From Pectobacterium atrosepticum (GTDB lineage: Bacteria > Pseudomonadota > Gammaproteobacteria > Enterobacterales > Enterobacteriaceae), in the NCBI GenBank assembly GCA_019056595.1, contig CP036163.1, positions 4,402,001-4,466,000 of the forward strand: a stretch of DNA of 64,000 nt, written 5' to 3'. The notes beneath the pieces were generated by a model. It was not told where the DNA came from. It searched no databases and saw only the letters and a list, made by a program, of their open reading frames with translations. Position numbers and translations under genes: made by a program. Each line of letters begins with the position of its first letter. Within the stretch, counting starts at the first letter, position 1. Of the stretch, positions 31,887-42,860 are shown piece after piece.

Positions 31887-32846
31887 ATGACGAATAAAAT
31901 CACATTAATGCCTTCTGGTGTTGTTTTTGAATGTGGATCAGAAAAAACAATTTTAGATTCAGCAATAGATCAAGGCATTGTTCTGGAACATAGCTGTAAA
32001 AATGGTTCGTGTAACGCTTGTGAAGCCCATATTCTTAGTCCTCAAGGTGAAATCCTTACTACCATTTTGACTTGTCAGGTAAAGCCTGACTGCGATATGA
32101 CCCTAGAGGCGGAGTACTATCCTGAGTTAGCGAATATTAAAAGTAAAACCGCACCGTGCAAGGTCGATTCTATCGACTATCCTCATGAGGATATTGTAAT
32201 TATTACGCTGCGTTTACCACCTACAGCTAACCTTACATTCTTGCCTGGGCAATATCTTGATCTGAAGTATCAAGGAATAACCAGAAGTTACTCCATTGCC
32301 TCTATTCCGCAGAATAATAGTAAAATTGAGCTTCATTTAAAGCGTGTAGAAAATGGTGCCATGAGTAGCAAGGTATTTGGTAATTTATCCGCTAACCAAC
32401 TAATGCAGCTCGAAGGGCCAAAAGGTACCTTTTTTTATCGAAATAATGAAAGCTCTGGACCAATAATATTTCTGGCAACGGGTACTGGATTTGCACCGAT
32501 AAAGTCGATTGTTACTGACCTGCTTAATAAGGGTACTCAACGAGATATTTATATTTATTGGGGAAATAGAAAAAGCAGTTTGTTCTATGATCCTTCTGTT
32601 GAGCTATGGGAAAGCCAACACGCTAATGTAAAGTGCAGTCTGGTTTTGTCTCAACCTGAAGAGGGTTGGGATGGAAGATACGGTTATGTTCAGGAGTTTG
32701 TCGTCGCTGATATTGGTGATTTGAACACCGCCAGTGTCTATGCCTGTGGAAGCCAATCAATGATTGAGTCGGCAAAAGCGTTATTGATTGAAAAAGGGCT
32801 TCCTGCCGCTAATTTTTATTCAGATGCCTTTGTGGTATCTGGTTGA
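31887..32846 (+). CDS. ddhD: CDP-6-deoxy-delta-3,4-glucoseen reductase (E3)
   Basis: This is a 319-residue iron-sulfur flavoprotein that passes electrons from NAD(P)H to the E1 dehydrase in C3 deoxygenation of CDP-4-keto-6-deoxyglucose. A plant-type [2Fe-2S] domain is at the N-terminus (C37, C42, C45, C63; EHSCKNGSCNACE). The FAD domain follows (GQYLDLKYQGITRSYSIAS), then the NAD domain (IIFLATGTGFAPIKSI and the terminal FYSDAF). The loop between C45 and C63 is about 11 residues shorter than I recall for Salmonella RfbI. The start lacks a strong ribosome site. It is the first of four ddh genes. Confidence 0.93.
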   Translation: MTNKITLMPSGVVFECGSEKTILDSAIDQGIVLEHSCKNGSCNACEAHILSPQGEILTTILTCQVKPDCDMTLEAEYYPELANIKSKTAPCKVDSIDYPHEDIVIITLRLPPTANLTFLPGQYLDLKYQGITRSYSIASIPQNNSKIELHLKRVENGAMSSKVFGNLSANQLMQLEGPKGTFFYRNNESSGPIIFLATGTGFAPIKSIVTDLLNKGTQRDIYIYWGNRKSSLFYDPSVELWESQHANVKCSLVLSQPEEGWDGRYGYVQEFVVADIGDLNTASVYACGSQSMIESAKALLIEKGLPAANFYSDAFVVSG

Positions 32847-32940
32847 ATCATAAAGTGGTTAAGAAAGATATATCGAATGTATTATTTGTCATCAGTATAT
32901 GGCAAAAAATTAAAGAGTAGGGACCAACTAGGAGCGTTCC

Positions 32941-33714
32941 ATGAAAGCGGTGATACTTGCAGGTGGGTTAGGTACCAGACTGAGTGAAGAAACGGTTACT
33001 AAACCTAAGCCCATGGTTGAAATTGGTGGGAAACCTATTTTATGGCATATCATGAAAATGTATTCTTATCATGGCATAAATGAATTTATTATATGCTGTG
33101 GGTATAAGGGATACGTTATTAAAGAGTATTTTGCGAATTATTTCCTACATATGTCTGATATTACCTTCAATATGAAGGATAATGAAATGACGGTGCTTCA
33201 AAAACGCGCAGAACCTTGGAAAGTTACGCTTGTAGATACAGGCGAGCACTCCATGACCGGAGGTCGTCTACGCCGCGTTGCTGAATATGTTAAAGATGAC
33301 GAGTGTTTTTGCTTTACCTACGGTGACGGTGTCTGTGGAATCGATATTCAAGATACGATTGCCTTCCATAAGCGTCATGGCAAACTTGCCACATTAACTG
33401 CGACGTTACCACCTGGTCGTTTCGGAGCTCTGGAATTATCTCAGGGACAGGTGAAAAGTTTTAAAGAAAAGCCAAAAGGTGATGGCGCCTTGATTAATGG
33501 CGGCTTCTTTGTTCTGTCACCTAAGGTGTTGGATTTGATTGATGGTGACAGCAGCGTTTGGGAACAATCACCGCTGATGACCCTGGCCGCGCAGGGCGAA
33601 TTGATGGCTTATGAGTACACGGGTTTCTGGCAGCCAATGGATACGTTGAGAGACAAAATGCTTCTTGATGAACTTTGGCAAAATGGTGAAGCTCCTTGGA
33701 AAAAATGGGAGTAA
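32941..33714 (+). CDS. ddhA: Glucose-1-phosphate cytidylyltransferase
   Basis: This is a 257-residue nucleotidyltransferase that makes CDP-glucose from CTP and glucose 1-phosphate, the entry to all CDP-3,6-dideoxyhexoses. The signature is [20 protein letters not shown] followed by [29 protein letters not shown] carries the metal-binding Asp. An AACTAGGAGCG site precedes the ATG. Its stop overlaps the ribosome site of ddhB, so the two are translated together. Confidence 0.97.
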
Positions 33715-33719
33715 GCAGC

Positions 33720-40766: not shown

Positions 40767-40770
40767 GACG

Positions 40771-41802
40771 ATGGCGAAGAAAATTCTATTATGTGATCCA
40801 ACTCTCCGTGATGGTAATCATGCTGTAAGACATCAACTGACGCGTGAAAGCTTTGCCGCTTATTGTCAGGCGGCTGAGGCTGCCAATGTTCCGGTTGTGG
40901 AAGTCGGTCACGGTAATGGCTTGGGCGCCTCGTCAATGCTTGTTGGCGAATGCTTGTTGAGTGATGAAGATATTTTTACCATATCGCGTGAGCACTTACA
41001 CAAGTCTCGTATGGCGATCCACCTGATCCCTGGGTTTTGCACCATCAAGAAAGATCTGACCCGAGCTCTGGAGCTTGGCGTCGATTTATTCCGTGTTGCA
41101 TCGCATTGTACTGAAGCTGATATTACCGATCGTCACATTCACTTTGTCAGAAATTCGGGCAAAGAGGCATGGGGGATCTTGATGATGAGCCATATGACTT
41201 CTCCTGCGGTTCTTTTAGAAGAAGCCAGAAAGATGGAGTCCTATGGCGCAGAAGCGATTGTCATCATGGATTCGGCTGGGGCGTATTTCCCTGATGATGT
41301 GAAAGAGCGTATTTCGACGCTGGTCAATGGACTAACCGTACCTGTCGGTTTTCACGGTCATAATAATCTGGGTATGTCAGTCATTAACTCGGTGGTTGCA
41401 GTGCAGGAAGGTGCAACAATTATTGACGGAACTATTCGTGGATTCGGCGCTGGCGCTGGGAATACTCAACTGGAAGTCTTGGTTGCCGTGTTTGAACGCT
41501 TGGGTTACGAAACAGGTATCGATCTCTATAAAATTCTGGATGCAGCCGATATTGCTGAAAAAGGATTTAACCCTGTCGCACCGTCAATATCGCCTTTATC
41601 GATTGTAAGTGGTCTTGCCGGCGTATTTTCAGGATTTGCCAAACCTGTGGCAAAAGCTGCGAAAGATTACAATGTTGATCCCAGAGATATCTTTTTTGGG
41701 CTGGGTGAACGTAAAGCGGTTGCAGGCCAGGAAAGCTTGATTTACGAAGTTGCGCGGGATCTTGCCAAACGTAATGAAAACTCCGTTGAAAAGGGACAAT
41801 AA
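40771..41802 (+). CDS. 4-hydroxy-2-oxovalerate aldolase, DmpG/MhpE family
   Basis: This is a 343-residue metal-dependent aldolase. R13, D14 and H17 lie in DPTLRDGNHAVRHQ and the metal ligands H195 and H197 in GFHGHNN, matching DmpG/BphI. It condenses pyruvate with acetaldehyde to 4-hydroxy-2-oxopentanoate, or cleaves it. I chose ATG 40771 (GGGAAATAAG upstream), four bases after the dehydrogenase stop; an earlier ATG at 40756 overlaps that gene. SHCTEAD, MMSHM and GAGAGNTQLEV are further family motifs. The C-terminal communication domain for binding the dehydrogenase is present. Confidence 0.94.
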   Translation: MAKKILLCDPTLRDGNHAVRHQLTRESFAAYCQAAEAANVPVVEVGHGNGLGASSMLVGECLLSDEDIFTISREHLHKSRMAIHLIPGFCTIKKDLTRALELGVDLFRVASHCTEADITDRHIHFVRNSGKEAWGILMMSHMTSPAVLLEEARKMESYGAEAIVIMDSAGAYFPDDVKERISTLVNGLTVPVGFHGHNNLGMSVINSVVAVQEGATIIDGTIRGFGAGAGNTQLEVLVAVFERLGYETGIDLYKILDAADIAEKGFNPVAPSISPLSIVSGLAGVFSGFAKPVAKAAKDYNVDPRDIFFGLGERKAVAGQESLIYEVARDLAKRNENSVEKGQ

Positions 41803-41804
41803 TA

Positions 41805-42860
41805 ATGAAAACATCATCATTGTCAGAATGTCGTTCAGATTGCTTGCTTGCCTGTGCTGGGGCTGAAGACGTAAGAAAGGTATTAGCTGGAAAGCATATC
41901 AGCATAACCGGCGGAACCGGATTCCTCGGTACCTGGATTGCGGAAATGATATCGGCACTGAACGATGAATATAATGCGGGCATTACGTTAGATATCTATG
42001 CGACTCGAGTGCAGGAGTGGGCGAGACGATTGCCTCATTTGGCTGCAAGATCGGATATCAATATTTATAGTCAGGATGTCAGATCGCCTTTTGAATTTTC
42101 AAAGGCAACGAATTTTATTATTCATGCTGCAGGTATCCCTAATACGCGGGTTCATTCCTCAGATCCTCTGAGAGTTTATGAAACTACCGTCACAGGGACT
42201 GCAAATTGTCTGGAAGCGGCGACCAAGCTTGGTTCGCTTATTCGGATGGTCAATGTCAGTTCATGTCTGGTAAATGGTCAACCCGATCGTTCTGGAGCAA
42301 CATCGGAAGATGATGCATTTATGCAGCGTTCCGGCGAATTGCACGGTGTGTATGCCGAAGCCAAACGTGCCTCTGAAACATTAGCGACTATCTACCGTAA
42401 TCAGCATCGTTTACCTATTTCTACCGTTCGACCATTTACTTTGGCTGGGCCTTACCATGAGCTTGATCTGCCGTGGGCGATTAATAACTTTATGAGAGAT
42501 GCGCTCAATGGTTCAACCGTTCGTATCCATGGCGATGGTAATGTTCGCAGAAGTTATTTATACGGTAGTGATGCGGCGTGGTGGACACTCACTGCTCTGG
42601 TAAAAGGAGGAGATGGTGATGTCTACAATCTGGGTAGTGCATATTCAATAAGTCATATTGAGCTTGTGAAGATGATTGGCGATCTTCTTGGAAAAGAACT
42701 CAATGTTGAGATTAATACTAATCCGGCTAAAAAAAATAAAGTTGATGATTTATATCCTAACACGCAACGTGTATCACAGCGGCTTAAGGTTGCTGAAACG
42801 GTAGATAGCTTAAGCATCCTTAGAAAAATGTACGCGTGGCACAAGTCGTCAACCAGATAG
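41805..42860 (+). CDS. NAD(P)-dependent epimerase/dehydratase, extended SDR family
   Basis: This is a 351-residue SDR with the motif ITGGTGFLGTW near residue 33 and a catalytic YAEAK preceded by VSSCLVN. The first 28 residues (MKTSSLSECRSDCLLACAGAED) are unlike the common fold start and rich in Cys. It starts 2 bases after the aldolase stop, so it belongs to the same transcript. With the SDR at 38913 it provides the reduction and any epimerisation needed to finish the branched sugar. I cannot tell which enzyme does which step. Confidence 0.85.
   Translation: MKTSSLSECRSDCLLACAGAEDVRKVLAGKHISITGGTGFLGTWIAEMISALNDEYNAGITLDIYATRVQEWARRLPHLAARSDINIYSQDVRSPFEFSKATNFIIHAAGIPNTRVHSSDPLRVYETTVTGTANCLEAATKLGSLIRMVNVSSCLVNGQPDRSGATSEDDAFMQRSGELHGVYAEAKRASETLATIYRNQHRLPISTVRPFTLAGPYHELDLPWAINNFMRDALNGSTVRIHGDGNVRRSYLYGSDAAWWTLTALVKGGDGDVYNLGSAYSISHIELVKMIGDLLGKELNVEINTNPAKKNKVDDLYPNTQRVSQRLKVAETVDSLSILRKMYAWHKSSTR

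Follow-up and report, generated by a model that had tools for sequence, protein, structure and literature searches.

A probable erwiniose gene cluster in Pectobacterium atrosepticum with a DmpFG pair predicted to supply a (4R)-configured donor

The ten genes at 31875-42860 in a stretch of 64,000 nucleotides from the plant-associated Pectobacterium atrosepticum (contig CP036163.1; the whole stretch is called the window here) very probably make erwiniose, a rare ten-carbon branched sugar. We consider it likely that the cluster produces cytidine diphosphate (CDP)-erwiniose for an exopolysaccharide or O-antigen. The donor would be made by DmpF and DmpG, coupled to the sugar by a thiamine diphosphate (ThDP) enzyme of the ErwE type, and the product reduced by a short-chain dehydrogenase/reductase (SDR). 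The central step of this route is known, and the window does not hold the first erwiniose pathway. The new part would be the supply of the donor, together with its likely inverted stereochemistry.

According to a 2025 review, P. atrosepticum ErwE joins CDP-4-keto-3,6-dideoxyglucose to a hydroxylated 2-keto acid, as assayed in vitro with an analogue of the acceptor (PMC12247030). The enzyme is reported to use 4-hydroxy-2-oxopentanoate, as well as 4-hydroxy-2-oxobutanoate and 4-hydroxy-2-oxohexanoate, but not pyruvate (PMC12247030). In the exopolysaccharide of P. atrosepticum, erwiniose is described as a specific branched sugar with ten carbons (PMC8657720), and it is also reported to occur in E. 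carotovora and P. atrosepticum O-antigens. These reports support the product and the carbon bookkeeping of a first-pass annotation of the window, which had also stated that no pathway was published; for the central step this was wrong. We infer that the ThDP enzyme of the window is the published ErwE. The original study of ErwE is reportedly that of Steitz et al. 2022. The ErwE system and the window probably share the genus, and in both a ThDP enzyme of the YerE kind accompanies a ddh set in the same sugar setting. The ErwE descriptions in the available part of the review contain neither a donor-making route nor a DmpG signature, whereas the window shows both as candidates (PMC12247030). A literature search on 4-hydroxy-2-oxovalerate aldolase found, among the papers listed, no tie to sugar biosynthesis, though the original ErwE papers may describe donor genes.

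All ten genes proposed by the first-pass annotation are intact, lie on the same strand and match the families assigned to them. The first gene had been started at 31887, an internal ATG of ddhD; the gene itself is confirmed, with its start at 31875. The order on the forward strand is ddhD, ddhA, ddhB, ddhC, an HpaI-family gene, the ThDP gene, SDR1, dmpF, dmpG and SDR2. DdhA, DdhB, DdhC, DmpF and DmpG all exceed their curated NCBIfam cut-offs (Table 1), the DdhA-D set that an erwiniose pathway calls for is complete, and the Cys presumed to be catalytic in DmpF lies in a TCGGQ motif. From the HpaI-family gene to SDR2 the spacing is as in an operon, adjacent genes overlapping by up to 11 bp or lying up to 27 bp apart, and the gap between ddhC and the HpaI-family gene is 194 bp. 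Another species of the genus (genome G306, locus L014) carries all ten genes in identical order, with proteins 94-99% identical (DdhD 94%). A near-complete set occurs in Pedobacter psychrophilus (L041) of the phylum Bacteroidota, where the run reads ddhD-like, ddhA, ddhB, SDR, HpaI, ThDP, DmpF, DmpG, SDR2 and ddhC. Because the gene set recurs in these two genomes, it is not a chance assembly.

The pathway would start with the conversion of glucose-1-phosphate to CDP-4-keto-3,6-dideoxyglucose by DdhA-B-C-D. DmpF, working in the biosynthetic direction, would turn acetyl-CoA into acetaldehyde and hand it to DmpG, which would join it to pyruvate to give 4-hydroxy-2-oxopentanoate, predicted to be the 4R isomer. 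The ErwE-type enzyme would then decarboxylate this keto acid and attach the 3-hydroxybutanoyl anion so formed at C4 of the keto-sugar. Reduction of the new ketone to a 1,3-dihydroxybutyl branch would finally fall to an SDR, for which SDR2 is the likeliest candidate. We infer the direction of DmpFG, the R configuration and the choice of SDR from the features described below.

DmpG carries most of the new evidence. Ten loci encode what we call sugar-type DmpG, namely the window, L014, L041, L022, L023, L146, L147, L162, L168 and L169. Their DmpGs are 60-99% identical to that of the window (lowest 59.9%), and all other DmpGs examined reach at most 49.4%. Aligned to 1nvm (256 bits), the window DmpG has His at the position of BphI Leu87 and Phe at that of Tyr290, and does not show the Leu87/Tyr290 pair of (4S)-specific enzymes. 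It retains Arg16, Asp17 and His20, the catalytic residues of DmpG. Position 87 is His in 10/10 sugar-type DmpGs, and position 290 is Phe in nine and Val in one (G916), with Tyr in none. Among 25 matches to TIGR03217, Leu87/Tyr290 is found in 16/16 degradation-type DmpGs, a group set by sequence with genomic context scanned in six; in all six, an FAA-hydrolase-family gene adjoins DmpG. The rest of the 25 are the window, G732 and G719 (sugar-type), L139 (I/Y), L140 (H/C), L141 (H/F) and L142-L144 (F/H). A branch with 100/100 support separates sugar-type from degradation-type DmpGs in a tree of 29 rows that predates the addition of G916, G1047 and G1051. Gene content, conserved linkage and this residue signature are direct observations. 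Compared with DmpFG/BphIJ of aromatic degradation, the window pair belongs to the same two families above their cut-offs and shares the communication domain as well as the catalytic residues Arg, Asp and His. It differs in having His87/Phe290 and not Leu87/Tyr290, in lying among sugar genes and in its presumed synthesis direction, and its DmpG is 39-42% identical to the 16 degradation-type enzymes.

The stereochemistry of the product gives this signature its meaning. We take erwiniose to be 3,6,8-trideoxy-4-C-[(R)-1-hydroxyethyl]-D-gulo-octose. By a Fischer-projection calculation, this name agrees in configuration, both at C4 and at the hydroxyethyl carbon, with a D-xylo 3,6-dideoxyhexose bearing a 1,3-dihydroxybutyl branch, and its C7 is R. 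Under this assumed name the donor must therefore be (4R)-4-hydroxy-2-oxopentanoate. A D-xylo 3,6-dideoxyhexose core is named for yersiniose A, in a reference title, and for caryophyllose. BphI is reported to yield only (4S)-4-hydroxy-2-oxopentanoate, and its L87N/Y290F and L87W/Y290F variants to act on the 4R isomer only (PMC3962088, PMC4012138). An ordinary DmpG would not supply the 4R donor, and the signature observed here predicts 4R. The first-pass annotation overlooked the stereochemistry: the donor from an ordinary DmpG or BphI is 4S, and the active site of the window DmpG is altered as in inverted BphI. The DmpFG pair of the window is thus predicted to be naturally stereo-inverted and biosynthetic. 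The agreement between stereochemical bookkeeping and DmpG signature, two independent lines, is the strongest new argument, and the assumed name of erwiniose is its weakest link.

Several points weigh against this interpretation. The full chemical name used here for erwiniose was not found printed in the literature checked. The R switch of BphI was shown with Asn or Trp at position 87, and His is not reported there in the available parts of the two studies (PMC3962088, PMC4012138). One sugar-type DmpG has Val at 290, and the signature is confined to one clade and therefore represents one evolutionary event. Locus L141, where DmpG lies beside an aminotransferase gene, also has H/F, and the signature may mark biosynthetic DmpGs generally, not those of sugar pathways alone. 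Both the HpaI-family aldolase and the second SDR are superfluous in the proposed scheme. The linkage was partly selected for, as loci were gathered by ThDP enzyme or DmpG. The ThDP gene of G719 lies away from the DmpFG cassette on another contig, and among the best 80 of 577 YerE-like loci only one encodes DmpF and DmpG (at least 30% identity), so that most lack DmpFG.

Related DmpG sequences were seen in other settings. Aminotransferase genes adjoin DmpG in L140 and L141, and both fall inside the sugar DmpG clade on long branches. In L150:8987-12161 (G822) and L149:9829-13109 (G782), DmpF and DmpG lie beside a class I/II aminotransferase, with H87/F290 and H87/C290, respectively; these sets may make a 4-hydroxy-2-amino acid. 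The DmpG-like proteins of L163 (G847:C387), L143 and L144 have Phe87/His290 and Tyr replacing His20, and L163 has a ddhC-like protein (28%) nearby.

The changes in DmpG could relax stereocontrol or shift aldehyde preference without inversion, and the ThDP enzyme or the reductase would then select the isomer. This is possible, though we hold it unlikely. Stereocontrol is reported to be lost in BphI Y290F or Y290S alone, and L89A raises activity with longer aldehydes (PMC3962088); the window DmpG has Ile in place of Leu at position 89. The presence of His87 in all ten sugar-type enzymes suggests selection, however, and both published double mutants at 87 and 290 are 4R-only (PMC3962088, PMC4012138), which argues for inversion.

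The HpaI-family aldolase encoded directly before the ThDP gene could be a second source of the keto acid. The protein scores 153 bits against the TIGR02311 cut-off of 369 and is a family member, not an HpaI equivalog. Its residues D44, H47, R72, E152 and D178 are kept in three homologues aligned; these are the metal- and pyruvate-binding residues. The active-site Gln of EcHpaI two residues before the metal Glu, presumably position 147, is Ile in the window protein. HpaI is found in 3/10 sugar-type DmpG loci (window, G306 and Pedobacter) and for this reason looks accessory. It is absent over the 14-20 kb examined in L022, L023, L146 and L147, all of which keep DmpF and DmpG. The remaining loci are too short to judge absence, L162 being a 7.6-kb contig and L168 and L169 4-kb pieces. 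As the ten loci were collected by DmpG, the presence of DmpG in 10/10 is no evidence by itself. HpaI matches among the pooled open reading frames (ORFs) of all loci except the short late ones occur only in L014 and L041, both with DmpFG. The first-pass annotation had treated DmpG and HpaI as interchangeable; we reject them as equivalent alternatives on the four loci that keep DmpG without HpaI.

It seems quite improbable that HpaI makes the donor keto acid, with DmpF mainly supplying acetaldehyde and DmpG secondary. The position of the gene immediately ahead of the ThDP gene in the window, L014 and L041, the retained metal- and pyruvate-binding residues and the reported formation of both 4R- and 4S-4-hydroxy-2-oxopentanoate by EcHpaI (PMC8560999) speak for such a role. 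The loci with DmpF and DmpG and no HpaI, the restriction of pooled HpaI matches to DmpFG loci and the loss of the conserved Gln speak against it. Since EcHpaI makes both enantiomers, HpaI could instead top up or recycle the donor made by DmpFG, or it could serve another reaction.

A different product, such as yersiniose with its two-carbon branch or a homologue of different branch length, is very unlikely. ErwE accepts 4-hydroxy-2-oxobutanoate and 4-hydroxy-2-oxohexanoate, and YerE-like enzymes serve several sugars (PMC12247030). Against this, DmpF and DmpG jointly point to a C5 keto acid, and erwiniose is reported from the P. atrosepticum exopolysaccharide (PMC8657720) and from the O-antigens of E. 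carotovora and P. atrosepticum. The first-pass annotation would have abandoned erwiniose for yersiniose had the enzyme accepted only pyruvate. ErwE, which the window enzyme presumably is, is reported not to use pyruvate, and yersiniose is rejected on this ground (PMC12247030).

Known systems place the window among makers of longer branches. YerE and YerF of Yersinia pseudotuberculosis share with it the DdhA-D intermediate and ThDP addition at C4, and yersiniose shares the D-xylo core with erwiniose, the latter by its assumed name. YerF is the reductase acting after YerE. YerE adds two carbons from a pyruvate donor, whereas the branch predicted for the window has four carbons, with an aldolase and a dehydrogenase dedicated to it. 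Caryophyllose likewise bears a longer branch on a D-xylo 3,6-dideoxyhexose core, but differs from erwiniose in that this branch has six carbons. Its YerE-like enzyme MMAR_2332 of Mycobacterium marinum is described as having a donor preference like that of ErwE (PMC12247030).

The distribution of sugar-type DmpG supports a link to branched sugars. In 9/10 loci, DmpG has a YerE-like ThDP gene on its strand no more than 2 kb away; the ten loci span two phyla. A first scan of genome contigs with the ThDP query returned no relative. An alignment scan for YerE-like loci used two patterns common to many such enzymes and yielded Pedobacter; the best 80 of 577 loci were kept, of which 56 are at least 15 kb long and the shorter ones could hide absent partners. 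Together, ddhA, ddhB and ddhC occur in 31 of these best 80. Genome searches added G491, G598, G732, G719, G916, G1047 and G1051. Nine of the ten loci were returned by DmpG-led searches, and a YerE-like ThDP gene is present in 9/9 of those genomes. The Pedobacter ThDP enzyme (45% identical) is the nearest found outside the genus.

Within the genus, matches to ThDP at 96% or more and to DmpG at 99% or more are both confined to the window's genome and G306 among 25 genomes, and two others have ThDP matches at 33-35% identity. Among 369 genomes of the class, seven have a ThDP match (E <=1e-85) and three a sugar-type DmpG, two of these being congeners and the third the window's genome; all three fall within the seven. 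The hypergeometric p for this co-occurrence is 2e-4 with the window excluded (2/368 with 6/368), and it rests on two genomes of one genus. With the ThDP enzyme as query, blastn found nothing in E. coli genomes, and matches in phages and plasmids all stayed under 60% identity, those listed being at about 30%. That DmpF and DmpG, families named after degradation enzymes, lie in the locus by chance is hardly credible and is rejected, given that the linkage recurs in two phyla and that these DmpGs form a clade of their own, and given the residue signature and the nesting of the three sugar-type genomes within the seven ThDP-positive ones.

Further loci were noted in these searches. The DmpFG cassette of G719 (L147) is close to the end of its contig and has no ThDP gene beside it; the CDG-type ThDP gene of this genome (L148:8864-10687) is on another contig, and none of its neighbours in the 20-kb stretch examined matched a window protein. 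A YerE-like ThDP gene of the same genus (L016:8742-10520, G295), 33% identical to that of the window, has no ddhA or ddhB matches in its 20-kb surroundings and possibly serves a different branched sugar.

The ThDP partners of sugar-type DmpG do not form one clade, and a tree uniting seven of them is rejected by the approximately unbiased (AU) test (p = 2e-7). The ThDP tree has 65 rows and leaves out short-flank loci, L025-L038 and five others; it is a quick tree supported only by the Shimodaira-Hasegawa-like approximate likelihood ratio test (SH-aLRT). One group holds the window, G306, Pedobacter and G916 together with L042 (SH-aLRT 97), and a second holds G491, G598, G732 and the unlinked gene of G719 (SH-aLRT 100). 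Judged from these trees, one predicted donor module is paired with two unrelated ThDP subtypes. The window enzyme has a GDG motif and the catalytic Glu expected of a YerE-like enzyme (E50, invariant in eight aligned). Its closest solved chain is 8rph (367 bits), which we take to be JanthE from its CDG motif. The second group carries the CDG motif, which has been described for JanthE (PMC12247030, PMC12188165). Both JanthE and the window enzyme are YerE-like, but the GDG motif places the latter in another subtype. All six distinct CDG-type ThDP genes collected (110 aligned rows including two duplicates) come from genomes with sugar-type DmpFG, namely G491, G598, G732, G719, G1047 and G1051 (loci L022, L023, L146, L148, L168 and L169). 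JanthE is reported to accept 4-hydroxy-2-oxovalerate with benzaldehyde, and its physiological substrates are described as not yet identified (PMC12188165). The CDG-type enzymes of these genomes presumably use the DmpFG product.

Other arrangements around YerE-like genes were also observed. L042:6885-12733 (DBEA01000018.1, labelled Patescibacteria) has ddhB, ddhA, a ThDP gene and SDR1 without DmpFG, and its ThDP enzyme groups with the ErwE type. In 19 of the best 80 of 577 loci (L041-L120), a protein of 521-573 amino acids is encoded near the YerE-like ThDP gene and in the same direction, at 0-140 bp in 12/19 and within 3.1 kb in 19/19; two copies are cut by a contig end. It combines an HMGL-like aldolase part resembling DmpG with about 270 amino acids lacking a Pfam match, and its best Foldseek matches are 3dxi and 1nvm at 21-24% identity. 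Examples are L069:8373-9989, L119:11920-13500 and L105:8321-9967. This protein is a candidate alternative donor-making aldolase for branched sugars.

SDR2 lies directly beside DmpG in the window, G306, Pedobacter, G732, G719 and G916. Its members score 549-574 bits against a profile built from those members, and other hits score at most 270; this position and tight subfamily make it the favoured ketoreductase. In L022 and L023, the SDR near DmpF is more distantly related (250 and 213 bits). SDR1 is a candidate second reductase or epimerase on the basis of its family. The NCBIfam scan gave no match for it, with Pfam Epimerase its only assignment, and its structure model has a mean predicted local distance difference test (pLDDT) of 52. 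Homologues of SDR1 occur in L014 (G306), L147 (G719, 50%), L162 (G916, 45%, partial) and L042 (34%).

The surrounding polysaccharide locus fits the published structure. The P. atrosepticum exopolysaccharide repeat is reported to have five residues, with a backbone of galactose, mannose and rhamnose, a side chain of erwiniose and galactose (Erw-Gal) and an O-acetyl group (PMC8657720). The window encodes WbaP and four glycosyltransferases, enough for five residues, as well as one hexapeptide acyltransferase, manCB and rmlACD. Going by these assignments, the gene content fits an erwiniose-containing five-residue repeat with O-acetyl. A search for rmlB, limited to the ORFs at 53207-56605, found none. 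A galF-like gene beyond rmlDCA scores below its family cut-offs, and ORFs upstream of the ten-gene cluster are putatively wza, wzb and wzc.

Table 1. Genes of the candidate erwiniose cluster and its polysaccharide locus, with the two DmpG codons discussed in the text (window coordinates).
Feature	Position	Strand	Basis
WbaP-type initiating galactose-1-phosphate transferase	30309..31763	+	TIGR03022, 570 bits, cut-off 403
ddhD, reductase partner for C3 deoxygenation	31875..32846	+	Pfam Fer2, FAD_binding_6, NAD_binding_1 (2Fe-2S + FAD/NAD reductase)
ddhA, glucose-1-phosphate cytidylyltransferase	32941..33714	+	TIGR02623, 474 bits, cut-off 300
ddhB, CDP-glucose 4,6-dehydratase	33696..34811	+	TIGR02622, 518 bits, cut-off 278
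ddhC, CDP-4-keto-6-deoxyglucose 3-dehydrase	34808..36124	+	NF011936 (RfbH), 758 bits, cut-off 423
HpaI-family pyruvate aldolase, probably accessory	36319..37101	+	Pfam HpcH_HpaI
ThDP enzyme, ErwE-type	37111..38907	+	three TPP domains (TPP_enzyme_N/M/C)
SDR1, candidate second reductase or epimerase	38913..39848	+	Pfam Epimerase
dmpF, acylating acetaldehyde dehydrogenase (acetyl-CoA to acetaldehyde)	39876..40766	+	TIGR03215, 418 bits, cut-off 282
dmpG, pyruvate + acetaldehyde to 4-hydroxy-2-oxopentanoate, predicted (4R)-specific	40756..41802	+	TIGR03217, 370 bits, cut-off 286; DmpG_comm
dmpG codon 89 (His), BphI position 87	41020..41022	+	alignment to 1nvm
dmpG codon 291 (Phe), BphI position 290	41626..41628	+	alignment to 1nvm
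SDR2, favoured ketoreductase of the new branch	41805..42860	+	Pfam Epimerase
Wzx-like membrane protein, putative flippase	43098..44417	+	position and length; no Pfam match
glycosyltransferase family 2	44380..45159	+	family scan
hexapeptide acyltransferase, candidate for O-acetyl group	45156..45782	+	family scan
glycosyltransferase group 1	45798..46943	+	family scan
Wzy-like membrane protein, putative polymerase	46940..48142	+	position; no Pfam match
glycosyltransferase group 1	48085..49284	+	family scan
glycosyltransferase family 2	49391..50320	+	family scan
manC + manB, GDP-mannose supply	50339..53131	+	TIGR01479, NF011943 above cut-off
rmlD, rmlC, rmlA, dTDP-rhamnose supply	53207..55465	-	TIGR01214, TIGR01221, TIGR01207 above cut-off

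For the four-carbon branch of erwiniose, the window points to a concrete origin that can be tested, and a residue signature separates sugar-making from degrading DmpG in the set compared. More broadly, the loci may define a dedicated biosynthetic DmpFG subfamily, a degradation complex reversed in both direction and stereochemistry and paired with ErwE-type and JanthE-type ThDP enzymes in at least two phyla; we give this idea an even chance. If it holds, long-branched sugars would receive their branch from (4R)-4-hydroxy-2-oxopentanoate, which the subfamily would build out of acetyl-CoA and pyruvate. The subfamily would be the natural counterpart of the engineered BphI L87/Y290 double mutants, and nature may here show a switch of stereochemistry that in BphI took engineering. 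It would also predict the physiological donor of JanthE-type enzymes, proposing a natural donor where substrates are reported as not yet identified (PMC12188165).

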